Shown here: piece after piece, positions 1,397 through 26,058 of the stretch | Position numbering within the stretch: position 1 is the stretch's first letter | How the letters are laid out: each line of letters opens with the position of its first letter | Assembly (NCBI GenBank): GCA_018268955.1 | Contig: JAFDVO010000004.1 | Span: 62,001-126,000, forward strand | DNA length: 64,000 nt | Direction of reading: 5' to 3' | Source of the DNA: Acidobacteriota bacterium | GTDB taxonomy: Bacteria > Acidobacteriota > Vicinamibacteria > Vicinamibacterales > CAVVIG01 | Program-made: the position numbers and the translations under genes | Notes under the pieces: model-generated | Told to the model about the DNA's origin: nothing | Seen by the model: the letters and a program-made list of their open reading frames with translations, nothing else | Database searches by the model: none

Positions 1397-2587
1397 ATGG
1401 CGCTCTATGCCTTCGACGGCACCTGGAACGAAGCGAAGACGACCGAAGACCCGCGATACGAGAACACCAACGTGGTCCGGTTCTACAACGCGTACTCGCA
1501 GCGAACGCCTCCAGGCAGCAACTTCTATGTGGCTGGCGTCGGCACCCGCTACGACACGCTGGGCCGTGTGCTCGGTGGCGCGTTCGGGCTCGGTGAGCTC
1601 TCCCGCATCAAGGAAGGCTTCGACCACCTGTGTCGTCGCTGGGCCGCGGGCGATACCACCATCGACGTCGTCGGATTCAGCCGGGGCGCGGCGACGACGC
1701 TGGACTTCTGCCATTACCTGCAGGAGCGCGGTATCCGGCACCCGGAGACGGGAGAGATGCTCGACGCGGATCCGCAGATCCGCTTCCTCGGCGTGTGGGA
1801 TACCGTGGCGGCCTTCGGCCTCGGGAACCTGGGCAACGAGGTCCTCAACTTCGGCCATCACCTGACGCTGCCGCAGAAGAACCTGAAGTACTGCTTCCAC
1901 GCGCTGGCGCTGGACGAGCGTCGGCTCTCCTTCCTGCCCACGCGGCTGCCTGGCGCCTGCGAGGTCTGGTTCCGCGGGGTCCACTCCGACATCGGAGGCG
2001 GCAACGGCAACCGTGGGCTGAACGACATCACGCTGCGCTGGATGTTCCGCAAGGCGCAGGCCTCTGGTCTGCCCATCGAGGATGCCGACGTGGCCGTGCT
2101 CGCGCCGCAGGTGGTCGAGCCGAAGCCCGCGAAGGATCTTCCGGTCTGCGTGCGTGCGATTGCGTCAACGGATCGGCGCCACTACACGGTCGCGCCGGCG
2201 GCCGAGTGGACCAACCCGCCCGCTACCTGCCCTGTCGAAGACGAACCGGCTGAGAAGCACGCGTCCGAAATCGGCGAGTCGGGGATCGAGCTGCTGCCGG
2301 TGGAGGTCCGCCGCCGGATGGCCGCCATGTGGGAAGCCGCCGATACGGTCGCCCGGGATCGCGGGTTCGACCTCGAGCATGTCCGCGCCTGGCTGCTGAA
2401 CCTGATCGAGGGTCGCGTCATCCTCGTCACGACCGACGCGCAGCTCACGCTCGCGCGCGCCAACATGGGCCGGCTGATTGCCGTCGCGACCGACAACGCC
2501 AGGCGGCGCGACTTCCGGGTGTTGACCGACTTCTTCCTCAACGAGGCGCTCTTCAGCCTGCCCCATCTGTATCCACTGACGGACTGA
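1397..2587 (+). CDS. DUF2235 alpha/beta-hydrolase (Tle1-like phospholipase fold)
   Basis: A 396-residue protein beginning MALYAFDGTWNE, the typical start of DUF2235, a serine-hydrolase family that includes type VI secretion phospholipase effectors (Tle1) as well as many housekeeping-context proteins. The nucleophile elbow is GFSRGA with Ser95, followed by the hydrophobic helix expected after it. FDGTW (6-10) and GVWDTVAAFG (near 136) are further conserved blocks. No signal peptide or membrane segment is visible, and no VgrG, PAAR or immunity-like gene lies next to it, so an effector role is not supported here. An unspecific lipase/esterase activity is the safe inference. A purine-rich GAGGAGATCC lies just upstream of the ATG. 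It is followed by a repeat-rich gap and a convergent operon. Confidence 0.85.
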   Translation: MALYAFDGTWNEAKTTEDPRYENTNVVRFYNAYSQRTPPGSNFYVAGVGTRYDTLGRVLGGAFGLGELSRIKEGFDHLCRRWAAGDTTIDVVGFSRGAATTLDFCHYLQERGIRHPETGEMLDADPQIRFLGVWDTVAAFGLGNLGNEVLNFGHHLTLPQKNLKYCFHALALDERRLSFLPTRLPGACEVWFRGVHSDIGGGNGNRGLNDITLRWMFRKAQASGLPIEDADVAVLAPQVVEPKPAKDLPVCVRAIASTDRRHYTVAPAAEWTNPPATCPVEDEPAEKHASEIGESGIELLPVEVRRRMAAMWEAADTVARDRGFDLEHVRAWLLNLIEGRVILVTTDAQLTLARANMGRLIAVATDNARRRDFRVLTDFFLNEALFSLPHLYPLTD

Positions 2588-2636
2588 GGGAGGGCTCGGG
2601 ACACTGAGGACTCGGCACCCGGCGGCGACGGGACTG

Positions 2637-2690
2637 CCGCATTTCCGCGTTTCGGCTTCCGCGTTTCCGCGTTCAGCGGTTCCGCGTTAG
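2637..2690. repeat. Short tandem array, period about 7 (TTCCGCG-like unit)
   Basis: Between two convergent stop codons the sequence cycles through degenerate copies of TTCCGCG / TTTCCGC. The phase slips once or twice. Just before it (about 2594-2622) another run of GGACTCG-like heptamers is visible. It resembles the longer heptamer arrays at 58580 and 59901. Confidence 0.6.
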
Positions 2691-4153
2691 AGCGTCTTGA
2701 GGTACTCGAGGAGCGCGCGCTTCTCGTCGGGGCCGAGCGTCGTGCCGTATGTGTGCCCGACGTTGCTGTTTCCAGGCTGGCTCACGTCGAAGGGCGTGCC
2801 GACCCGTCGCGCGTCTGCGGTGTCGCTCACGAACCCGACGTGTTCCGCGTCGAAGAGGTCCAGCCCGCGCCAGAACTGGCGTGGGCGGCGCTCCGCCGGT
2901 TCGAGCAGCGCGGCGAGCGTCGGAACGGAGCCGTTGTGCAGGTAGGGGGCGGTCAGCCAGATGCCGTCGAGCGGCACTGACGTGTAGCCGTTCGTCTTGC
3001 GGAAGCCGGTGAACCTCCACGAGTAGCCGTTGCCGTACTGGTTGTAGGCGCTGACGGCGCCGTCGGTCCACATGTCGAGCCGGTGACGGTCGGTCCCGAT
3101 CTCCTCGAGCGGAATCACCGCGCCGAAGCGCTTGCCCTCTGGAGCGTGGCACTCGGCGCAGTGGGTCACATAGATCGGCGCCCCGGCATCAGCGAGCGTT
3201 TTATCAACCGGTAGCGGATACCGTGGCGCGTCGAGCTGGCCAATGTAGTTCATGACACGCCGGAGGCTCGACATGCGCCTCGGGTCGGTCTGGTCCCACT
3301 TCGCAAAGTCGCGCTCCATCCACCTTCGGGTCGCTCCATCACCAAGCGCAGACGACTGCACCACTTCACGGAGCGAGGTGCTCAGGCCGTCCCAGTGATA
3401 GGCGGTGCCATCGCGGCGGGCGAGGTTCCAGAGCGGCATCATGTCGGAGTTGCCAATGGTCTGATCCACGGGCTGTCGCAGGATGCCGAACTTCACCGGG
3501 TTGAACGGGTCGATCCGGCCGCGGCCCCAGTCGGGCCGGGCGTGCATCCAGGCATCCTGATCGCGCAGCCGCAGAAGAGCGCGACGGGTGCCTGGGACGA
3601 TCGCGAACCGGTACAGCAGGCGGTCGACGGCTGACAGGCGCGTGTTCTTCGCGATTTCGGCGAGCAGTGTGCTCGCGGTGAAGCGCGGGTCCTCGGCACA
3701 GCGGATAAGGAACCGCAGGTACTCCTGCTCTCCCGTCTGGTGGGACGCGGCGGCAGGATAGATGGTCGGGATGTCATCCGCGTGCGCCCTGAAGCTCGCC
3801 GCGTGGCACATCGCACAGTTGATGCCGACGCGCGGGAAGCCGACGGTGACTTTCGAGAGCCCGATCGGCATCTCGTGACCGTCTCGTGCCAGGACACCGA
3901 TCGACGCATAGCCGCCGGGGCCGGGCAGGTACTCCGGGAAGACACGCGGAAGCACGAGCCAGATCCAGTACGGAATGCCCTGCTCGGCTTCGGTCCCGAC
4001 CGATCCGTAGAGGAAGTGCTCCTCGTCGGACGTGAAGAACGGCGCGGGCTGCTCCCGGAAGAACTGCGTCCAGACAAACACGCCCGCGACGACGAGCAGC
4101 CCCCCGATCGCGACAAGCAGGCGTCGGCGATCGATCCCGCCAGGCACGCGCAT
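2687..4153 (-). CDS. Membrane-anchored diheme c-type cytochrome (RoxA / di-haem peroxidase-like)
   Basis: A 488-residue protein with an N-terminal membrane anchor (about 10-29) and two c-heme sites: CAMCH (C113, C116, H117) and CAECH (C332, C335, H336). The C-terminal part carries TDRHRLDMW, YLHNGSVPTL and the closing GPDEKRALLEYLKTL, a layout shared with RoxA-type rubber oxygenases and diheme cytochrome c peroxidase/MauG relatives. The globular part should face the periplasm. The start used is the ATG at 4153, whose A is also the last base of the preceding gene's TGA (TGATG), so translation is coupled. It is a paralogue of the 4608-6104 protein; both share WGRGR.D.FNP and the YLHNGSVPTL block. 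Substrate is unknown; the neighbouring Old-Yellow-Enzyme and GMC genes suggest oxidation of a lipid, terpenoid or aromatic compound (inference). Confidence 0.85.
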   Translation of the reverse strand: MRVPGGIDRRRLLVAIGGLLVVAGVFVWTQFFREQPAPFFTSDEEHFLYGSVGTEAEQGIPYWIWLVLPRVFPEYLPGPGGYASIGVLARDGHEMPIGLSKVTVGFPRVGINCAMCHAASFRAHADDIPTIYPAAASHQTGEQEYLRFLIRCAEDPRFTASTLLAEIAKNTRLSAVDRLLYRFAIVPGTRRALLRLRDQDAWMHARPDWGRGRIDPFNPVKFGILRQPVDQTIGNSDMMPLWNLARRDGTAYHWDGLSTSLREVVQSSALGDGATRRWMERDFAKWDQTDPRRMSSLRRVMNYIGQLDAPRYPLPVDKTLADAGAPIYVTHCAECHAPEGKRFGAVIPLEEIGTDRHRLDMWTDGAVSAYNQYGNGYSWRFTGFRKTNGYTSVPLDGIWLTAPYLHNGSVPTLAALLEPAERRPRQFWRGLDLFDAEHVGFVSDTADARRVGTPFDVSQPGNSNVGHTYGTTLGPDEKRALLEYLKTL

Positions 4154-6104: not shown

Positions 6105-7429
6105 CAGGCAAAGGGCTGCGGCCGATAGACCGACAGCACTTCCTCCAGCATCGCTTCACGACTCGGAAACCGGCTCTCCTCGTAGCAGCCGAGCGGGTGC
6201 TCGACGACATGCACCAGGCACTTGTTGCAGTAAGTGCAGGGGCGCTCTGCGCGGTCGCGCCCGGCGGCGAACTGGTGGACCAGGTCATTGTTGGCGACGA
6301 GGGGGCGCGCGATGCTCACCGCGTCGCACTGCCCTGCCTGGATGGCGCGGCGAATGACCGACGCGGTCTGGAAGCCGCCCGTGCAGATGACCGGCACGTC
6401 GACCGCTTCCTTGATCACCGCCGCATCCGGCAGGGTGAGCCCTTCGATCGCCGCGGGGTCGACTCCGGCGTCGAGCCACGCCTTGCGGAAGATGTCACCC
6501 GTCACGTCGTTGTGGAACAGCAGCAGGTTCCGGAACGTGTTCGTGCCGCTCGACGCAAGCTGCTCGTAGGTGTGCGACAGCAGGTCCACGTCCAGGTCGC
6601 TGCCCGCCGGATTGCGTGGATGTGGGAACGAGCTGCCGGTGGAGACGTGAATGGCGTCGACGCCAGCCTCCACCAGCCACCGGCAGACCTGTGCCGACTC
6701 GGACACCGTATTGCCGGGGCCCTCGAACTTCGTGAAGAGCAGCGCGTTGTTGAACTCGGTGGCACTGATCTTCATCTGCAGGTGGAAGTCCCGCCCGACC
6801 CGCGTGCGGATGGCCCGGACGATCTCCAGCACGAAGCGCGCACGGTTCTCGAGCGGGCCGCCATACTCATCCTGCCGGTCATTGATGGCCGAGCTGAGGA
6901 ACTGGGTGATGAGGTAGCCGTTGGCGCCATGCAGTTCGACGCCGTCCAGCCCTGCGTCACGTGCGCGGCGCGCCCCTTCGGCAAACGCGGAGACGACCTC
7001 CCGGATGTCCCCGATGGTCATCCGGTCGCATTCGAAACCGTGGAGCGGATCCTTCTTGCTCGTCGAGCTCTGGCCCCGGGGGAACTGCAGGTCCGGCACG
7101 TCCCGCTGCCGGCCACCGTGGCTCAGCTGCAGGATGAACCGGCAGTCGTGTTCGTGGACCGCCTGGCCGAGGGCACGCCAGAACGGGATGCGATCGTCTG
7201 CGTGAATCGTCGCGTAATTGGGGATAATCCGCCCGCGGGGGTGCACCGGGACGAAGGACGAGATGATGGCGCCCACCCCGCCGCGCGCGAACTTCGTTTC
7301 CCAGTTGATGCGGGTCTGCGTCCCCGTGCCGTCGTAGTTGTCGAATCGTCCGGAGATGTTCGACCGGACGATGCGGTTCTTGACGGTCAGGTTGCGAAAC
7401 TGCAACGGCTCGAACAGCACATCACCCAT
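6104..7429 (-). CDS. Old-Yellow-Enzyme family NADH:flavin oxidoreductase with Fe-S motif
   Basis: A 441-residue FMN TIM-barrel enzyme of the OYE / 2,4-dienoyl-CoA reductase group. Seen: HGANGYL (167-173) with the substrate-binding His/Asn pair, SSAINDRQDEYGGPLENR (179-196), and the phosphate-binding CTGGF and SIARPL blocks. A C-terminal set of cysteines C398, C401, C404 and C415 (CTYCNKC followed by GC) matches the 4Fe-4S ligands of dienoyl-CoA-reductase-like members, although the usual extra NAD(P)/FAD domains are absent. It is expected to be cytosolic and to reduce an activated C=C bond. First gene of a four-gene coupled operon with the diheme cytochromes and divergent from the 7583 cytochrome lipoprotein. 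Confidence 0.9.
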   Translation of the reverse strand: MGDVLFEPLQFRNLTVKNRIVRSNISGRFDNYDGTGTQTRINWETKFARGGVGAIISSFVPVHPRGRIIPNYATIHADDRIPFWRALGQAVHEHDCRFILQLSHGGRQRDVPDLQFPRGQSSTSKKDPLHGFECDRMTIGDIREVVSAFAEGARRARDAGLDGVELHGANGYLITQFLSSAINDRQDEYGGPLENRARFVLEIVRAIRTRVGRDFHLQMKISATEFNNALLFTKFEGPGNTVSESAQVCRWLVEAGVDAIHVSTGSSFPHPRNPAGSDLDVDLLSHTYEQLASSGTNTFRNLLLFHNDVTGDIFRKAWLDAGVDPAAIEGLTLPDAAVIKEAVDVPVICTGGFQTASVIRRAIQAGQCDAVSIARPLVANNDLVHQFAAGRDRAERPCTYCNKCLVHVVEHPLGCYEESRFPSREAMLEEVLSVYRPQPFA

Positions 7430-10295: not shown

Positions 10296-12254
10296 GTGAG
10301 CACACCTGAATCGACCCCTCGCCCCTCCACCTACGACGCCGACTTCATCGTCGTCGGCTCCGGGGCCGGCGGCGGCACCGTGGCGGCCCGGCTGGCCGAG
10401 GCCGGTTTTCAGGTGCTGCTGCTGGAAGCGGGCGGCGATCCCCGGACGTCGATCGGCGACACACCGCAGACGCCGCAGGTGAACACGCTGCCGGACGACT
10501 ACGACGTGCCCGCGTTCCATGCCCTTGCCACGGAGAACGCCGGCCTGCGCTGGGACTTCTGGGTGCGGCACTACAGCGACGATCGGCAGCAGTTCCGTGA
10601 CCCGGCGTACCGCACGGAGAACGAGGGGCGCCCGGTCAACGGCGTGCTGTATCCGCGCGCCGCCACGCTCGGCGGCTGCACGGCCCACAACGCGATGATC
10701 CTGGTCTACCCGCACAACGCGGACTGGGACCAGATCGCGGACCTCACCGGCGACGCCTCCTGGCGAGCGGAACGGATGCGCACGTACTTCGAGCGGATCG
10801 AACGGTGTGAGTACCGGCCCGACGAGAAGCTCGCGAGCCGCGTCGGCGCGAACCCGAGCCGCCATGGATGGGACGGGTGGCTGCAGACTGAGACAGCGCC
10901 GCTGGATCCGGTGTTCAAGGACCGGAACATGCGGAAGGTCATCTTCGAGTCCGCCCGCACAGCGCTCCGGCAGCCCGAACTCGCCCTCACCGACGCCGAC
11001 CGCCGTGCGCGGCTGGACAGCGCACTCGACCCGAACGACTGGCGCGTCGTCTCGGACGACGCGATCGGCATACGGGTCACCCCGCTCACGACGAAGAACC
11101 ATCAGCGCGTGGGCGCACGGGAGCGCGTCCTCGACGTCGCGAAGGTCCGTCCCGACCGCCTGCAGTATCGCTTGAACGCGCTCGCGACAAAGGTCCTGTT
11201 CGACGACACCGGGCGTGCGATCGGCGTCGAGTATCTTGACGGCGAACGCCTCTACGGTGCCCACCCGAGGGCGAGCACGTCTCCGGCACGAACGGCACGC
11301 GTGTTCGCCGCACGCGAGGTGATCCTGGCAGGCGGTGCGTTCAACACGCCGCAACTGCTCATGCTCTCCGGTGTCGGGCCGGCGAAGACGCTCGATGCGT
11401 TCGGGATTCCGGTGCGCGTGGCGCTCGACGGCGTCGGCCGCAACCTGCAGGACCGCTATGAAGTGGCGGTCATGAACCGGATGAACCTCGACGCCTGGGA
11501 GGTGCTGAAGGGAGCCACCTTCACGCGCGACGACCCGCAGTACCGCCAGTGGGCCAAGGACCGGACCGGCGTCTACGCGAGCAACGGCGCCATTCTGTCC
11601 GTGGTCGCGCGTTCGCGGCCGGGCGCTCCCTCGCCGGACCTCTTCCTCTATTGCCTGCTCGGCCGGTTCGAAGGGTACTTCCCCGGGTACTCATCGCTGC
11701 TGGCGGAGAACCCGAATTGCCTCACATGGGTGGTGCTGAAGGCGCACACCAACAACACAGCCGGTGAGGTCACGCTGCGCAGCGCCGATCCGCGCGTGCC
11801 GCCCGCGATCAACTTCCGGTATTTCGACGAAGGCAACGACGCGCGTCACGAGGACATTCAGGGCGTGGCTGCCGGCGTCCGCCTCGCCCGCACGTTGACG
11901 GCCCCTCTCGTGCAGCAGGGCTTGATCACGCGCGAGGAACTGCCTGGACCCGACTACGACAACGACACGCTCGAGGACTTCGTCCGCGATCGCGCCTGGG
12001 GCCATCACGCATCGTGCAGCTGCCCGATTGGCGACCCTGCGTTCGGCGGCGTGCTTGGCAGCGATTTCAAGGTCCACGGGGTCCAGGGGCTCCGTGTGGT
12101 CGACGCCTCGGCCTTCCCCCGCATCCCCGGCTTCTTCATCGTCAGCGCGGTCTACATGATCGGCGAGAAGGCCGCGGACGTCATCGCCACCGAGGCGCAT
12201 GCGGCGGTGCCGCTTGGTCCCGTGACGCCGTTCACAACAGCCGGTCGCTACTGA
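10296..12254 (+). CDS. GMC family FAD-dependent oxidoreductase
   Basis: A 652-residue glucose-methanol-choline oxidoreductase read from a GTG start. The N-terminal dinucleotide motif GSGAGGGTVAARLAEAG follows a short Thr/Pro-rich lead; the second GMC signature is GGAFNTPQLLMLSGVG. The C-terminal active-site region has WGHHASCSCPIG (His pair as base) and VVDASAFPRIPGFF. These enzymes oxidise alcohols (sterols, sugars, choline, terpenoid alcohols) with FAD; the substrate cannot be chosen here. No Tat or Sec signal is visible, so it is probably cytosolic. It lies downstream of the cytochrome lipoprotein on the same strand, separated by repeat arrays, and is followed after eight bases by the decapeptide-repeat lipoprotein gene. 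Confidence 0.92.
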   Translation: MSTPESTPRPSTYDADFIVVGSGAGGGTVAARLAEAGFQVLLLEAGGDPRTSIGDTPQTPQVNTLPDDYDVPAFHALATENAGLRWDFWVRHYSDDRQQFRDPAYRTENEGRPVNGVLYPRAATLGGCTAHNAMILVYPHNADWDQIADLTGDASWRAERMRTYFERIERCEYRPDEKLASRVGANPSRHGWDGWLQTETAPLDPVFKDRNMRKVIFESARTALRQPELALTDADRRARLDSALDPNDWRVVSDDAIGIRVTPLTTKNHQRVGARERVLDVAKVRPDRLQYRLNALATKVLFDDTGRAIGVEYLDGERLYGAHPRASTSPARTARVFAAREVILAGGAFNTPQLLMLSGVGPAKTLDAFGIPVRVALDGVGRNLQDRYEVAVMNRMNLDAWEVLKGATFTRDDPQYRQWAKDRTGVYASNGAILSVVARSRPGAPSPDLFLYCLLGRFEGYFPGYSSLLAENPNCLTWVVLKAHTNNTAGEVTLRSADPRVPPAINFRYFDEGNDARHEDIQGVAAGVRLARTLTAPLVQQGLITREELPGPDYDNDTLEDFVRDRAWGHHASCSCPIGDPAFGGVLGSDFKVHGVQGLRVVDASAFPRIPGFFIVSAVYMIGEKAADVIATEAHAAVPLGPVTPFTTAGRY

Positions 12255-19519: not shown

Positions 19520-19525
19520 TATAAT
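19520..19525 (+). promoter_or_regulatory. Perfect TATAAT -10 box of the PqqD/kinase/flippase operon
   Basis: TATAAT lies 21 bases before the first usable start codon (GTG at 19546) of the operon, in the gap to the divergent glycosyltransferase. The -35 region is poor (CAGTGT at 17-base spacing), which suggests an activator or a weak promoter. Confidence 0.55.
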
Positions 19526-19545: not shown

Positions 19546-19977
19546 GTGCGCTCCCGTCGGTCGGCCATCGCGGGACATGAGTGCTGGTGCCCACGTTTGT
19601 CAGAGATCACGCTGAATCCCGATGTGGTCTGCAGCCCGCTGCCCGAAGGTGGTGTGCTGCTCGACCTCGATACGAAGCAGTACTTCGCGCTGAACCGTAC
19701 GGGCATGACCGTCTGGCAGCATCTCGAGGACGGCGGGTCGCTCGCGGGTCTGCGTGCGTCTCTCGGCGAAGCGGCCGCAGGCGACCTCGATGCGTTCGCC
19801 GCCTGCCTCATCGGCCACGGCCTGGCCACGCAGGCACCTGCGCGTGAACCCGGCGCCGTCCCGACGGCGCCTCCTGCGCAGGGACCCTGGGATGCACCGA
19901 CGGTGACGCCGCATGGACGTCCGCTGGCTCAGGTCATCCTCTCGCCGTTCGATCCCACGGTTCCGATTCCCGAGTAG
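19546..19977 (+). CDS. PqqD-like (RiPP recognition element) protein with Pro-rich tail
   Basis: A 143-residue protein from a GTG start; a TTG at 19597 (giving MSEITLNP) is an alternative. Residues 20-95 match PqqD: GGVLLDLDTKQYFALNRTG followed by VWQHLEDGGSLAGL. PqqD folds bind leader peptides of ribosomal peptides and hand them to modifying enzymes. A tail of about 45 residues follows, Pro-rich and ending near VPIPE; within it W115-D-A-P118-T-V120-T-P-H-G124 fits the spacing of the lasso leader motif YxxPxLxxxG with W for Y and V for L. First gene of a six-gene operon with an HPr-kinase-like protein, a B2-like/flippase fusion and a nucleotidyltransferase. PqqD homology is solid; a leader-like role for the tail is hypothesis. 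Confidence 0.8.
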   Translation: MRSRRSAIAGHECWCPRLSEITLNPDVVCSPLPEGGVLLDLDTKQYFALNRTGMTVWQHLEDGGSLAGLRASLGEAAAGDLDAFAACLIGHGLATQAPAREPGAVPTAPPAQGPWDAPTVTPHGRPLAQVILSPFDPTVPIPE

Positions 19978-19986
19978 CGATACGTC

Positions 19987-20985
19987 GTGCTCCTGACGCT
20001 GCCCTGGCTCTCGCTGGCTCTCCCCGACCTCACGTCGGCGATCGAGGAACAGATGCGTCGGGCCGCGGCGAAGTTCGCGGCCGGCGAGTCACGGACGGCC
20101 GTTCACCTCGGGGGCGAGTTGGCGTGCGACGATCGCGGAGCTCCCGACGCTGCCGAAGACGTGATGCGGCACGCGAACGTCTCCTTCCAGTTCGTCTCGG
20201 GCATCGAAACGGTCGATGAGGCACGCTATGCCACGCGCGATGGCTCCGTGGTCTGCGTCGACCACGCGGCCCGCCACGTCAGCTTCCGCCTGAACCGGGC
20301 CGTGTTCGATGCGCCGTACTCGACGTGGACCGACCTGTTCGCCGCGCCCCTCGCGGCCACCTGGCGCCATCACGGCTGCTTCCCGCTCCACGCGGCAGCC
20401 GTGGCATTCGACGATGGGACCTCCGTGATGGTGGTGGGCGCCTCCGGGTCTGGCAAGACGACGACGGCGCTCGCCCTTGTGACGGCGGGTGCGACGTGGC
20501 GGGCCGATGACAAGGTGCTGCTGCACCATGCCGGCGCCGGCCTGCTCGCAACCAGCCTCTACGCGAACACCAACCTGGCGCCCCAGACGATCGCCGCCCA
20601 TCCGCATCTCGGGTTTGCACTGGCCCGTCCACCGCTCAACGAGACCAATGAGAAGCGGGCCTGTCTGCTGAGGGAGTTGGGACAGCGGGTCGACCTCTCC
20701 CCTTTCGCGCCGTCCGCGCTGCTCTTCCCCATCCGCGTCACGCGGCACACCTCGTCATTCAGGCCGATCAGCACCATCGACGCGCTCCTCCGGCTTGCCG
20801 AGCAGAGCCCAACGAGCGGGGACCGGACGGTGATGAGGCGGCAGCATGAGCTCCTGGTGACGCTGGCGCGGCGTGCGCCCGCGTGGGAAATTGAAGCTGG
20901 CAGCGACGTCCTCATCGCACCGGGGTCGTTTGCACGGGCCCTCCGCGATGCCGTCAGCCATCACGCGGTGTCCGCGTCCGCATGA
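19987..20985 (+). CDS. HPr kinase-related protein
   Basis: A 332-residue P-loop protein of the HprK-related type. Seen: PLHAAAVAF (133-141), Walker A GASGSGKTT (151-159) and the ADDKVLL segment (173-179) carrying the acidic pair expected of the HprK catalytic region. No HPr protein or phosphotransferase gene is nearby. In lasso-peptide clusters such kinases phosphorylate the C-terminal residue of the peptide precursor; in other PqqD-containing loci their target is unknown. Starts nine bases after the PqqD stop. Its TGA overlaps the GT2 ATG by four bases. The substrate could be the PqqD tail, an unlinked peptide or a sugar-linked group; none is proven. Confidence 0.82.
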   Translation: MLLTLPWLSLALPDLTSAIEEQMRRAAAKFAAGESRTAVHLGGELACDDRGAPDAAEDVMRHANVSFQFVSGIETVDEARYATRDGSVVCVDHAARHVSFRLNRAVFDAPYSTWTDLFAAPLAATWRHHGCFPLHAAAVAFDDGTSVMVVGASGSGKTTTALALVTAGATWRADDKVLLHHAGAGLLATSLYANTNLAPQTIAAHPHLGFALARPPLNETNEKRACLLRELGQRVDLSPFAPSALLFPIRVTRHTSSFRPISTIDALLRLAEQSPTSGDRTVMRRQHELLVTLARRAPAWEIEAGSDVLIAPGSFARALRDAVSHHAVSASA

Positions 20986-21860
20986 GCCTGCTCTTCAGCG
21001 TCGTCATTCCGGTACTCGACATGGCGGACACGATCGGGCCGTGTCTCGACGGGCTCCTCGCCCAGAGCTTGCCGTCTTCGCGGTACGAGATCCTGGTCGT
21101 CGACAACGGGTCGACGGACGGCACCCCCGACGTGGTCAGCCGCTATCCGGTCCGCCTGCTGCATGAGCGCGCACCTGGCGCCTGCAACGCAAGGAATGCG
21201 GGCATCGCAGCGGCTCGGGGCGCATTCATCGCCTTCACCGACGCCGACTGCGTGCCTTCGCGTGGGTGGCTGGCCGCCTTTGCCCGCGCGGTCGCAGACG
21301 ATCAGTGTGATATCGCCGCCGGTTCGCTCGCGGTGCTCGATCCTGGCCAGTCGGTGCTCTCCCGCTACTCGGCAGCGCTGGGTCAGTACGACCCCGAGCG
21401 GACGCTCGCGCATCCAACGTTTCCGTACGCACCTACGGGCAACCTCTGCGTCCGGCGATCGCTGTTCGACGCCGTGGGGCCGTTCAGCCCGGCGTTCCCG
21501 ACCTACGATGCGGCCGAGTTCTTCTGGAGGCTGAAGCAGCGCGGACCGATTCGGGCGCGGGTCGAACGACGGGCACTGGTGTTCTACCGCACCCGCAATT
21601 CCGTGCGCGCGTTCGTGAAGCAGAACTTCGGGTACGGGCTCGGCGCGGGTCGCCTCCTGCGGCAGGCGGCCGGTCGGCATGTCGGAACGTCGCGCGCCGC
21701 GCTTCGCTCGTTTCACACGCGTGTGCGCGACGTACAGGCCATCGCGCAGTCGGATGCCGCCGGTTCGCTGCGACGCAGCGCCGCGTTCATCGGGCTTCAC
21801 CTGCTCCGCGAGACGGCCATTGCCACCGGGTTCATCGCGGCAACGCTCAGGGACGCCTGA
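20982..21860 (+). CDS. Family 2 glycosyltransferase
   Basis: A 292-residue GT-A fold enzyme. FSVVIPVLDMADTIGPCL (5-22) begins the nucleotide-sugar domain, VVDNGSTDGTPDVV (39-52) and FTDADC (metal-binding DxD-like site) follow, and GPFSPAFPTYDAAEFFWRL supplies the acceptor-side catalytic acid region. The last 80 residues are Arg/Ala-rich amphipathic helices that may contact the membrane. Cytosolic sugar transfer, most likely onto a lipid carrier given the flippase next door. Its start overlaps the kinase stop (ATGA); 18 bases separate it from the fusion gene. Confidence 0.88.
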   Translation: MSLLFSVVIPVLDMADTIGPCLDGLLAQSLPSSRYEILVVDNGSTDGTPDVVSRYPVRLLHERAPGACNARNAGIAAARGAFIAFTDADCVPSRGWLAAFARAVADDQCDIAAGSLAVLDPGQSVLSRYSAALGQYDPERTLAHPTFPYAPTGNLCVRRSLFDAVGPFSPAFPTYDAAEFFWRLKQRGPIRARVERRALVFYRTRNSVRAFVKQNFGYGLGAGRLLRQAAGRHVGTSRAALRSFHTRVRDVQAIAQSDAAGSLRRSAAFIGLHLLRETAIATGFIAATLRDA

Positions 21861-21878
21861 CAAACGGGTGCCACACTC

Positions 21879-23684
21879 GTGCCCCCGACAGCCCTCTCCC
21901 TGCTAACCCGGACGCGTCGACGCATCCGCACGTTCGACGAGGCGCTGCTGCTCGTCAGGGTCGCAGCCGTGATGGCGCTCCTGCCCTGGCTCATACGACT
22001 CGAGACCACCCGCATGCTGCGCTGGCTCGAGCGGATCGGGTCCATCGTGCGCGTCGGGATGCGCGCGTCGCCTGACGACGTCGTCCGGATGACGCGGTCG
22101 TGTGGCGGCCTCCACCGCTGGGCGTTCCAGGACAACTGCATCGCCCAGTCGCTGACGCTGTTCACCCTCCTCAACCGTCGCCCGAGGGAACTGGAGGTCG
22201 TGTTCGGCGTCGAGTCCCTTCCTGCCGTCGACGGCGTGCCCCGCCTCGGGCGTCGACACGTGTGGCTCGAGTCGAACGGCCGTCCGGTCTACGAACGCGA
22301 GGCGCTGGATCTCAGCCGATACGCGGTCCAGGCTCGGTACGGTGCGCTGTCCCGTGACGACGCGCCGGGAGCGGCATCGGTGATCGGAGCACTTAGCGTC
22401 TCCGGTGCGGCAAGTGGGCTGAACAGCATCGCCGCGGTTGCCCGGACGAAGATCGTCGCCACCGTGCTGGGGCCGGCCGGAGTGGCGGTGAGCGGCCAGG
22501 TGTCGCAGTCACTGCTGGCGTTGAACTGGCTTGCCACGTTCGGCACGGGCGCCGGAACAACCCGCTTTCTCGCGGAGGCGCTCGCGCAGGATGACGAGGA
22601 CGCTGCCGGAGGCGTCGTACGGAGCGCAGCCGTGTTGCTGGGGGGTACGTCTGTCGCACTAGCAGCCGCGGCGGTCGCCTTCGCACCACAGATGTCACGC
22701 GTGCTGTTCGGCTCACCCGGCCGCGAGTCGTGGGTGTTGTGGATCGCGGCGGCGATCCCTGCCGCCGCCGTGCTGAGCGTCTCGACATCGGTCCTGCGTG
22801 GCGCGGCGCAGCCAGAGCGCCTTGCCGCCGCGCAAGGGATCGGTGCGAGCCTTGCCGTCGGCGCCGCTGTCGCCCTCGTGCGGGGCGCGACCCTCGACGC
22901 GCTCGCCCCCTTGGCGCTCGTGATTACCACCATCCAGGCCACAGCCACGACGGTGGCGGCCTGGCCGCTGCTGCGCCGCTTCGCCTTGCACCGCGGCACC
23001 GGTCGCCACACCGGCCTCATGGGGCGCATTGCCGGGTACGGTCTCGCCAACGTCGTCATGGGGCTCGCGACGGCGGCGTCGACCCTCTACATCGGCCGCG
23101 CGTATCTCGCGTCCGGCGCCAGGACCGAGGCGGGACACATCGCGGCGCTGGCCTGGTTTGCGGAGCCGCTCGCCGGTGCCATCGTGTCCGGCTTCTATGC
23201 GTCGACGTTCCCGGCCTACTGCGCGACACACGGGGAACAGGCTCGCCGCGTGCTGTCGCGGGGCGTTCGAGCGCTGGTCGTGGTTGCGACCCCGCTGCTG
23301 CTCGCATCGTCGCTCCTCTCACGTCCGTTGCTCCACCTGCTGTTTGCGCCCGCCTTCGTGAGCCTCGCCCCGCTTGTGCGAGTGCAGGTGCTGGCGACGT
23401 ACGTGCGGTCCGCCAACGTCCTGCTCGGCGTTCCGCTGCTCGCACGCGGCTACGTCGTTCCGCTGACGCTGCTCCACCTGGCGTGGGCGACGCTTTCAGC
23501 CGCGGCTGCGACGCGGGGGCTTGGCGGACCGGGGAGCTACACGTATGCGCTGCTCGGCGCCGGTGCACTCCAGACGATCGCCCTGGTGCTCGGCCTGCGA
23601 GTCGTGCGAATTCCACTGACGAGAGGTGATCTCGCGTGGCTCGCGGCCGGTGCGGCGCTCCTGGCGGTGGTGGCGGTGGCGTGA
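21879..23684 (+). CDS. Fusion of lasso-B2-like transglutaminase domain with Wzx/MOP flippase
   Basis: A 601-residue single reading frame from a GTG. Residues about 15-155 match the lasso-peptide biosynthesis B2 / transglutaminase-like domain: DNCIAQSLTLFTLLNRR (catalytic Cys87), then FGVES and HVWLESNGRPVYE (His127); the usual acidic third residue is not certain. B2 proteins cut leader peptides. Residues about 165-600 are a polytopic MOP-superfamily flippase (ALSVSGAASGLNSIAAVARTKIVATVLGPAGV is the typical N-terminal helix region), which moves lipid-linked sugars across the inner membrane. The frame is continuous with no stop or obvious shift at the junction, and its TGA shares a base with the ATG of the GT4 gene. 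A protease-like domain fused to this transporter class is unusual. Confidence 0.8.
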   Translation: MPPTALSLLTRTRRRIRTFDEALLLVRVAAVMALLPWLIRLETTRMLRWLERIGSIVRVGMRASPDDVVRMTRSCGGLHRWAFQDNCIAQSLTLFTLLNRRPRELEVVFGVESLPAVDGVPRLGRRHVWLESNGRPVYEREALDLSRYAVQARYGALSRDDAPGAASVIGALSVSGAASGLNSIAAVARTKIVATVLGPAGVAVSGQVSQSLLALNWLATFGTGAGTTRFLAEALAQDDEDAAGGVVRSAAVLLGGTSVALAAAAVAFAPQMSRVLFGSPGRESWVLWIAAAIPAAAVLSVSTSVLRGAAQPERLAAAQGIGASLAVGAAVALVRGATLDALAPLALVITTIQATATTVAAWPLLRRFALHRGTGRHTGLMGRIAGYGLANVVMGLATAASTLYIGRAYLASGARTEAGHIAALAWFAEPLAGAIVSGFYASTFPAYCATHGEQARRVLSRGVRALVVVATPLLLASSLLSRPLLHLLFAPAFVSLAPLVRVQVLATYVRSANVLLGVPLLARGYVVPLTLLHLAWATLSAAAATRGLGGPGSYTYALLGAGALQTIALVLGLRVVRIPLTRGDLAWLAAGAALLAVVAVA

Positions 23685-24829
23685 TGCGCATCCTGCACGT
23701 GAACAACGTGCTTCCGGTGGAGCCGATGGACGGCGGGCGCATGCGCAAGCAGCAGCACCTCGACGCGCTGGCGGATCGGCATGAGGTCTGGGTGATCGGA
23801 CGCACGCCCGACGCGGACGCACGCGACGCACTCGCCAGAACGCATCCTGAGTGGACGCTGATCACGGTTCCCGAGGAGGAGGTGCCGGGGCGCAATCCGG
23901 TGGCCGCGGCGGTCCGCGATCTCGCCGCGCGCGTCGCGTTCGACCTCGTGTTCGTGTCCGGCTTCAGCCAATGGCCAGGCGAGCGCGCGTTCCGCGACAG
24001 CCTCGTCGTGCTCGACATCGACAGCGTCGATGCCACCGTCTTCCAGCGCATGCGCGATACCGACCGGGCCGCTGCCTCGTCGTTCGACATTGCGGCGACC
24101 GAGGCGCTGACGAGGACCGTGTGCCGCCGCGCCGACCTCGTGCTCACGTGCTCGGACGTGGACGCGGCGCAACTCCGTGCGCTCGCGCCCGACGCGAGGA
24201 TCGGCGTGGTCGCCAACGGGATCGATGCGAGATCATTTCGCGGCATGGGTGCCGTTCCGGACGGTCCACCGGTGGTCACGTTCACCGGGTTCCTGGCGTA
24301 CTGGCCGAATGCGGACGCCGCCACGTTCCTGATGGCGGAGATCCTCCCGCTGCTGCGCGCGCGCGTGCCGGAGGTTCGCGTGAGGCTCGTCGGTCGTGTA
24401 CCGCCCGAATCGGTCGTGACGCTCGCACGGCAGCATGGGGTCGAGTTGCACGCGGATGTCCCCGACATGCGTCCCTGGTTCGAGACGACTCATGTCCTCG
24501 TCGCGCCCATCCGCGCAGGGAGCGGCACACGGCTGAAGATCCTGGAGGCATTCGCCGCACGTCGGCCGGTCGTCTCGACCAGCATCGGCTGCGAAGGGCT
24601 GGACGTGCGCGACGGCGAGCACCTCCTTGTCGCCGACACCGCACCCGCCTTCGCCGACGCCGTCGCCCGGCTGCTCTCCGACCGGAACCATGCCGATCGG
24701 CTGGCCATGCAGGCGCACGACCTTCTGCTGGCGCGATACGAACGAAGCGCGCTGGCAGACCATCTTCGCGCGCTGATCGACACCCTTGGTCGCCGCCGCG
24801 CAGAACCGGGCGCCTCCGGGCGGACGTGA
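23684..24829 (+). CDS. Family 4 (GT-B) glycosyltransferase
   Basis: A 381-residue GT-B enzyme from the ATG at 23684 (TGATG overlap with the flippase fusion). N-terminal Rossmann half begins MRILHVNNVLPVEPMDGGRMRK; the C-terminal donor-binding half has VVTFTGFLAYWPNADA and APIRAGSGTRLKILEAFAARRPVVST, with the conserved E of the EX7E-like region. It is retaining and probably transfers a sugar from a nucleotide donor in the cytosol. Followed after two bases by the nucleotidyltransferase gene, so it is inside the same operon. Confidence 0.88.
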   Translation: MRILHVNNVLPVEPMDGGRMRKQQHLDALADRHEVWVIGRTPDADARDALARTHPEWTLITVPEEEVPGRNPVAAAVRDLAARVAFDLVFVSGFSQWPGERAFRDSLVVLDIDSVDATVFQRMRDTDRAAASSFDIAATEALTRTVCRRADLVLTCSDVDAAQLRALAPDARIGVVANGIDARSFRGMGAVPDGPPVVTFTGFLAYWPNADAATFLMAEILPLLRARVPEVRVRLVGRVPPESVVTLARQHGVELHADVPDMRPWFETTHVLVAPIRAGSGTRLKILEAFAARRPVVSTSIGCEGLDVRDGEHLLVADTAPAFADAVARLLSDRNHADRLAMQAHDLLLARYERSALADHLRALIDTLGRRRAEPGASGRT

Positions 24830-24831
24830 AC

Positions 24832-26058
24832 ATGAGTCGTCGCACTCATGCTCATGAGAGCCATGCGCTCGGCACAGCCCGCGCACTGGCTGGCACCGGT
24901 CCATCACACGCGATCGACATCGTCCTCGAGCGCCTCGCGCGAGGCGATGCCGAAGCGGCGCAGACCTGGAGCGTGCTCCTGCACGGGGGCCTGCTGCCTG
25001 CCCTCGCATACGCCTGTGAACAACGTGACGGCCCAACCGTGAATGGGCCGCTCCGCGAGAGCCTCAGGTCGGCGCTCGACGTGAACACGCTGCGCAATGC
25101 GCTGCTGCGCCGGGAAACGATCGAGGCAAGCCGGGCCCTCCTGGACGTCGAAATCACGCCGCTGCTGATGAAGGGGATCTGGCTCGCGCACGAGCGGTAT
25201 CCCCACCCGGGGATCCGCACGATGGCCGACGTGGATCTGATCGTTCCCGTCGGCACACGCGAACGGGCGCGGAGGGCGCTCGAAGCAATCGGCTTCCGTC
25301 GCGTGCCGCCAGCGGGCCCGGATGGTGCCGATACCTGGACCGACACGTTCACGCGCCCTGCCGCTCTGCCAGGCGGTGAGACGTCAGTGGAGTTGGACCT
25401 GCACGACGCGCTCAGGATGTCGCGCGCTCGCGAGTGGCCCGTCGAGCGCCTGTGGCAGCATGCACACCGCACGCGGTTCGGCCCAGTCACGGTGCTCACA
25501 CCATCTCGCGAGGCGGGCCTGCTGTACCTCGCCGCTCATGTCTTCAAGCACGGCTTCGATCTGCGACACGCCCTGGTGGCAATCGGCGACGCCTCCGCCA
25601 TCCTTCACGGCGATGACGGTCTCGACCTGGAGTGGATGGACGCGGAACTGCAGGACACGCGTGACGCGCTGGCGGTGTACCTGCTGCTGACGTACCTCGG
25701 CGACGTGCCCACCTCGCAAGGGCGTGAACTCCACGCGCGCGTGTCGCGACGGCTCGAGCAGCGTGGACTGCGGCGTGATGCGGATCGGCTGCTGGCCGCC
25801 GCATCGCAGCTCACACTCCTCAGCGGGACCGATTTCTCACTGTTCGATGTCGGCGAGCAGCAGTCGATGGTCCTGCTGCTGCGCAGGCTCGTGGCTGGCG
25901 CGTTCCGCTGGCGAGGCCGGGTGCGGCACGGAGAGTCCGGGTCGCTGGAAGGAGTGGGGTTGGCGCGACTCGCTCGTCGCGCCAACTGGAGGTACGCGTA
26001 CACGACGTTCCTGGCGGGACGCCTGCACGCACGGTCGGAGCCGCCTATTCCTTCTTGA
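24832..26058 (+). CDS. NTP_transf_5 family nucleotidyltransferase
   Basis: A 408-residue protein of the PF14907-type nucleotidyltransferase family. LLMKG (111-115), HERYPHPGIRTMADVDLIV with the DxD metal site D133/D135, and a later SVELDLHDAL acidic block define the domain; a helical region follows. Such proteins occur in lasso-peptide and other RiPP loci with HPr-kinase-like genes and can add nucleotides or act on phosphorylated products; here the target is unknown. Last gene of the operon; its final 14 bases overlap the tail of the convergent PCuAC gene. Confidence 0.8.
   Translation: MSRRTHAHESHALGTARALAGTGPSHAIDIVLERLARGDAEAAQTWSVLLHGGLLPALAYACEQRDGPTVNGPLRESLRSALDVNTLRNALLRRETIEASRALLDVEITPLLMKGIWLAHERYPHPGIRTMADVDLIVPVGTRERARRALEAIGFRRVPPAGPDGADTWTDTFTRPAALPGGETSVELDLHDALRMSRAREWPVERLWQHAHRTRFGPVTVLTPSREAGLLYLAAHVFKHGFDLRHALVAIGDASAILHGDDGLDLEWMDAELQDTRDALAVYLLLTYLGDVPTSQGRELHARVSRRLEQRGLRRDADRLLAAASQLTLLSGTDFSLFDVGEQQSMVLLLRRLVAGAFRWRGRVRHGESGSLEGVGLARLARRANWRYAYTTFLAGRLHARSEPPIPS

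Follow-up and report, generated by a model that had tools for sequence, protein, structure and literature searches.

A leader-like tail fused to a PqqD-type recognition element in cyclase-free, glycosyltransferase-containing gene cassettes of Acidobacteriota

The clusters for linear polyphosphorylated peptides (LPP) of Bacillota, published in 2026, have an enzyme set similar to that of the locus described here, and their HprK-like kinase phosphorylates a Ser residue of a linear precursor (PMC13381572). The leader motif bound by discrete lasso-type recognition elements (RREs) is [Y/W]xxPx[L/V/I/F/A] (PMC13381572). In the biosynthesis of pseudomycoidin, PsmK adds a phosphate to the C-terminal Ser, and the attachment of one or two hexoses there requires PsmN (PMC9266682). 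Of the discrete lasso-type RREs in UniProt, which number roughly 8,000, about half are found without a co-occurring lasso peptidase and cyclase (PMC7470986).

The window analyzed here is a 64,000-nt stretch of contig JAFDVO010000004.1 of an Acidobacteriota bacterium, and the coordinates of its genes are given as window positions. Six genes, all intact, collinear, and tightly packed, occupy positions 19597 to 26058 of the plus strand, encoding in order a PqqD-type RRE, an HprK-like kinase, a GT2 glycosyltransferase, a fusion of a B2 peptidase with a MOP flippase, a GT4 glycosyltransferase, and an NTP_transf_5 protein (Table 1). The successive junctions measure +9, −4, +18, −1, and +2 nt, the last becoming −4 if NTP_transf_5 starts at GTG 24826 instead of ATG 24832. 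The PqqD reading frame probably starts at TTG 19597 and not at GTG 19546, because of its homology with the corresponding protein of a second genome, G050 (see below). While a preliminary description of this DNA placed the whole operon after one TATAAT promoter, and the hexamer is indeed there, a promoter scan found no complete sigma-70 match, and the single promoter is therefore unproven. The neighboring genes, which include those for a metallo-beta-lactamase-fold protein, a PCuAC copper chaperone, and an AI-2E transporter, show no apparent relation to the operon.

Table 1. Features of the six-gene operon (window positions)
Feature	Position	Strand	Basis
PqqD-type RRE protein with C-terminal tail, 126 aa	19597..19977	+	Pfam PqqD; TTG start inferred from G050 homology
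Leader-like tail of PqqD, residues 98-126, WDAPTVTPHGRPLAQVILSPFDPTVPIPE	19888..19974	+	Conservation versus G050; gap-free register with 25 other tails and lasso precursors
HprK-like kinase, P-loop GASGSGKT and DD motif	19987..20985	+	Profile comparison; tree
GT2 glycosyltransferase	20982..21860	+	Glycos_transf_2, 101 bits
B2-like (Transglut_core3) peptidase fused to MOP flippase, 601 aa	21879..23684	+	Pfam; fusion kept in G050
GT4 glycosyltransferase	23684..24829	+	Glyco_trans_1_4, 87 bits
NTP_transf_5 nucleotidyltransferase-like protein	24832..26058 (or GTG 24826 start)	+	PF14907, 125.8 bits
TATAAT hexamer upstream of operon, possible -10 element	19520..19525	+	Sequence

Pfam cut-offs are exceeded by PqqD (30.2 bits; cut-off, 23.4), by the Transglut_core3 and MatE parts of the fusion (30.9 bits at residues 32 to 145 and 25.2 bits at residues 191 to 325; cut-offs, 26 and 24.9), by NTP_transf_5 (cut-off, 31.2), and by both glycosyltransferases. 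The fusion narrowly misses the NCBIfam B2 model (28.5; cut-off, 33); its B2 domain contains Cys87 and His127, with Glu139 as a possible third residue. The closest NCBIfam models to GT2 and GT4, MftF of mycofactocin and stp1 of the PEP-CTERM/XrtA system, were matched below the cut-off of each model. The preliminary description had made its RiPP reading depend on significant scores for the B2-like and HprK-like domains: B2 lies over its Pfam cut-off, but HprK stays under those of the libraries (Hpr_kinase_C, 23.5 bits against 33.3 in Pfam; HprK_rel_B, 35 against 200 in NCBIfam), and its assignment is backed by profile comparison. RiPP-type enzymes in a glycan context, as first described, are present.

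An identical six-gene order was found in G050, a genome from another family of the same order. Identities between the two are 53% for PqqD, 46% for HprK, 54% for GT2, 46% for B2, 34% for the flippase, 50% for GT4, and 36% for NTP_transf_5, and the G050 flanks have no nucleotide match to the window. All six frames are intact and conserved with many synonymous changes, and the B2/flippase fusion is kept, with C87, H127, and E139 invariant. Because the order is maintained at 34 to 54% identity per gene, chance is excluded, and we regard the six genes as a confirmed, conserved unit, in agreement with the operon originally proposed. The RiPP reading was also to fail if homologous loci contained just polysaccharide genes with a transglutaminase-free flippase; it survives, since G050 keeps the fusion. 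Searches of 162 genomes from the order and 396 from the phylum detected the fusion in these two genomes only, all other matches being to the flippase half alone. One of them, the flippase of G161, was rejected as a relative, as it matches in the flippase part only and no RRE, HprK, or B2 was detected nearby. A scan of 84,980 species by domain patterns, not by the tail, returned the G050 contig only, and a search of plasmids with the window RRE gave no match.

Consistent with the preliminary description, neither an Asn-synthetase-like cyclase nor a free YxxP precursor lies within several kilobases of the window operon, and no such cyclase was found in the stretches examined around the window or G050 cassette. 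The operon has no separate small open reading frame with [Y/W]xxP; its sole match is the C terminus of PqqD itself. This C terminus is a conserved tail bearing WxxPxV, a form of the [Y/W]xxPx[L/V] motif, and it ends in approximately LSPFDPTVP[I/V]PE in both genomes. Window and G050 PqqD are identical at 23 of 30 positions in the tail (residues 97 to 126), 5 of 20 in the linker, and 43 of 76 in the domain, so that the tail is better conserved than either of the other parts. The tail, which the preliminary description missed, removes the need for a separate precursor; that description was right to see the likely target in a peptide or in a substrate bound to PqqD. AlphaFold2 models from two-sequence alignments had pLDDT values of 40 for the RRE protein with its tail and 38 for the B2/flippase fusion, too low for either model to be informative.

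Tails of this kind are not confined to the window pair. A first search, within Acidobacteriota, returned seven PqqD proteins with long tails, all seven with the motif and all in cyclase-free loci, in contrast to the 28 Asn-synthetase-linked PqqDs, all of which had tails of at most 16 aa and no motif. After shuffling, a mean of 0.73 of 7 tails had the motif, with a maximum of 4 in 2,000 shuffles, a test that is descriptive rather than blind because the motif was written once the first tails were known. Nineteen further tailed loci came from a Crinalium plasmid (1), the G379 class (6), and wider searches (12). The profile of these later searches includes the tail and so is biased to tailed proteins; the comparison with cyclase loci is that of the first search. 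The total of 26 tail-bearing RREs comprises 25 Acidobacteriota loci and the one cyanobacterial plasmid, sampling beyond Acidobacteriota being of plasmids only, and at E ≤ 1e−20 tailed RREs occur in 12 of 395 genomes of the phylum. Asn synthetase was found in none of the 26 loci within the stretches examined, some of them short. The motif takes the form aromatic-xxPx-hydrophobic in 21 tails and LxxP in 2, and it is lost in 3.

Several cyclase loci encode separate YxxP precursors (e.g., YTAPRLQRYGHLTKLTQSGG), which occur in tandem in L064 (three, at 11032 to 11772) and L098 (two, at 6339 to 6854). The search that finds them there detected no separate YxxPxLxxxG...T precursor near the window cassette or in locus L009. 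Tails and precursors share position 0 (mostly aromatic), position 3 (Pro), position 5 (Leu or Val), and usually a ring residue at position 8; beyond these, precursors continue with LT and a Gly-rich core, while tails continue with a hydrophobic block and [D/S]P. The genome of the window has a lasso-like locus of its own on contig C27 (L008, 6290 to 9924 and 16281 to 17036), with a tail-less PqqD, Asn synthetase, HprK, and B2. NTP_transf_5 is encoded close by, and an exosortase lies about 6 kb beyond. Between the cyclase and HprK of this locus lies a precursor, WTTPSLKRVGHVGEVLQGGGG, with WxxPxL. The operon might act in trans on that precursor, which carries the same type of leader motif, and some lasso RREs are known to be relaxed in their choice of leader (PMC13381572). 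Since C27 has its own PqqD, HprK, B2, and cyclase, and since the conserved tail would stay unexplained, we consider action in trans highly improbable.

By sequence, the window RRE matches RREs with solved leader complexes. In an alignment to PbaB1 and LppB (leader complexes 9x90 and 9x8z; PMC13381572), most of its pocket positions are hydrophobic as in those proteins, including the cleft-dividing Phe, and the Asn of LppB is kept; the window protein has a shorter helix 2-3 region, lacks two of the contact positions, and retains the first pocket only in part. The window RRE is probably still able to bind a leader.

The window kinase is closer to those of tailed loci than to lasso kinases. In profile comparison, it reached 99.2% against HprKs of tailed loci and 97.5% against lasso HprKs, and in the tree, tailed-locus HprKs and two radical-SAM-associated ones split from lasso HprKs with 94/96 support, the window protein falling among the former, apart from the lasso HprK encoded in the same genome. 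That every accessory gene of the operon is also known in lasso clusters, and that a separate lasso-like locus exists in the genome, would fit a lasso cluster in decay, with cyclase and precursor already lost. Given this tree position outside the lasso branch and six intact frames conserved in G050 with many synonymous changes, we find such decay hardly credible. Two further loci, L078 (8985 to 12214) and L101 (8685 to 12563), contain a tail-less PqqD, HprK, NTP_transf_5, and a weak B2-like match without Asn synthetase, L078 having an additional radical-SAM-like protein between these genes; their HprKs cluster with those of tailed loci.

In most tailed loci, the RRE is accompanied by an HprK-like kinase, GT2, and NTP_transf_5, as assigned by profiles that were built here and include the query sequences; in most of the loci other than the window pair, no B2 peptidase was seen. 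In L141, the GT2 and NTP_transf_5 genes of the tailed cassette flank an ABC exporter (2271 to 4000, minus strand) that is encoded in two overlapping frames, one for the membrane part and one for the ATPase part, and that recalls the MsbA-like exporter of LPP clusters. GT2, GT4, and the MOP flippase belong to glycan pathways; a flippase is also present in tailed loci L100 and L142, the latter having in addition a priming transferase and an O-antigen ligase. An ordinary polysaccharide cassette might therefore be envisaged, in which kinase, nucleotidyltransferase, and glycosyltransferases make a lipid-linked glycan that the flippase exports, with PqqD and B2 as relics or acting on the glycan. This is improbable in our view, as neither a priming transferase nor a polymerase was found among the six genes or their scanned neighbors and the RRE tail is strongly conserved. 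Moreover, compact stand-alone cassettes of a tailed RRE, HprK, GT, and NTP_transf_5 occur in other genomes (L143, L168, and L172), and in L143 neither flippase nor polymerase was detected.

From the gene set and its order, their conservation, the leader-like register of the tail, the cleft residues, and the lack of tails at cyclase loci, we tentatively propose, at a little under even confidence, that the operon makes a phospho-glycosylated peptide that is fused to its own RRE, by a route resembling the lasso and LPP pathways but lacking a cyclase. Through WxxPxV, the tail would be bound by the PqqD domain of the same protein or of a second copy, and its conserved end would so be presented to the enzymes. 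The HprK-like kinase would put a phosphate on the tail, as PsmK does on its peptide, NTP_transf_5 would attach a sugar (compare PsmN), and GT2 and GT4 would lengthen the glycan. The B2 domain would free the tail from the RRE during export through the fused flippase. By analogy with the described pathways, we infer that the tail is a substrate that is bound, modified, cut, and exported; by sequence, it is a candidate for a modified, released ribosomal peptide.

The tail could instead be a docking or regulatory peptide that fills the RRE cleft in auto-inhibition or holds the HprK-like kinase, with the cassette modifying a glycan or another acceptor. This is a serious rival because the tail end is unusually conserved: it is almost invariant across phyla and hardly varies within the wider group (DPIHEVD..GW), in contrast to the cores of typical RiPPs. 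Tails of the wider group also lack a conserved Ser/Thr, which is found in the window pair only, and most other tailed loci show no peptidase; the first RRE pocket, partly kept, and the short helix 2-3 region likewise speak against a self-carried substrate. In a gap-free alignment, Ser116 of the window (tail position 18, in “LSP,” also in G050) falls at the same position as the Asp of “LDP” in most other tails, which speaks against the proposed reading. Yet there is a position-by-position match between the tail and precursor leaders; the tail occurs where precursors were not found and is absent where cyclases are present, and the window pair has a domain of the leader-peptidase family. We regard docking as quite possible, though less probable than the tail as substrate.

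It is tempting to assume a peptide class in which the C-terminal tail of an RRE is phosphorylated and glycosylated in cis and, in the window type, cut and exported by one peptidase-flippase protein, although we judge such a class somewhat unlikely. If it exists, a lipid-glycan flippase fold exports a glycopeptide, and some of the many orphan, cyclase-free lasso-type RREs are precursors themselves. A cis-fused leader-like tail would account for part of these orphans and provide every such RRE with a substrate that can be tested. Glycan loci repeatedly contain enzymes for RiPP phosphorylation and glycosylation, and the tail would be relevant to this as well; what LPPs and paeninodins do there is stated to be unknown (PMC13381572). 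Overall, the preliminary interpretation is partly supported: the system is cyclase-free and not a standard lasso cluster, but it does have relatives, namely, cyclase-free loci with RRE, HprK, GT, and NTP_transf_5 and the LPP clusters of Bacillota (PMC13381572), and nothing supports a “peptidoglycan-like” system.

Compared with known systems, the operon shares with LPP clusters a discrete lasso-type RRE, an HprK-like kinase, an NTP transferase, a leader peptidase, an exporter, and the lack of a cyclase, and LPP clusters often lie inside capsule loci, akin to the glycan context here. LPP precursors are separate and contain YxxPxVLxHQxIxFETxxS, whereas in the window the PqqD tail takes their place and continues differently after the motif; the SipW-like signal peptidase (SpI) and MsbA-like transporter of LPP clusters are not among the six genes, which have the B2-like peptidase fused to a MOP flippase instead. 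RRE, B2, HprK-like kinase, and nucleotidyltransferase are also common to the paeninodin and pseudomycoidin lasso peptide clusters (PMC9266682), where phosphate and then hexose are placed on a peptide Ser, as proposed for the window tail. An Asn-synthetase-like cyclase and a separate precursor also belong to those clusters (PMC9266682); of these lasso hallmarks, the window operon has the B2 leader peptidase, by Pfam, and neither cyclase nor separate precursor. As an RRE-dependent RiPP locus in the wide sense, it has an RRE with a predicted leader-binding cleft. Wzx/Wzy exopolysaccharide clusters, one of which surrounds tailed locus L142, share GT2, GT4, and the MOP flippase; they have a priming transferase and a polymerase, whereas the window operon lacks both and adds RRE, HprK, B2, and NTP_transf_5. 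In borosins, the substrate peptide is the C-terminal tail of a methyltransferase of the pathway, while the window tail is fused to the recognition element. In peptidase-containing ABC exporters (PCATs), which couple cutting and export, leader peptidase and exporter are joined in one polypeptide as a C39 peptidase and an ABC transporter; the operon pairs a B2-like peptidase with a MOP flippase. Among open-access papers, we found none relevant to an RRE-precursor fusion. Loci with RRE, HprK, GT, and NTP_transf_5 but no cyclase form a wider set, and the new point is the leader-like peptide fused to the RRE.
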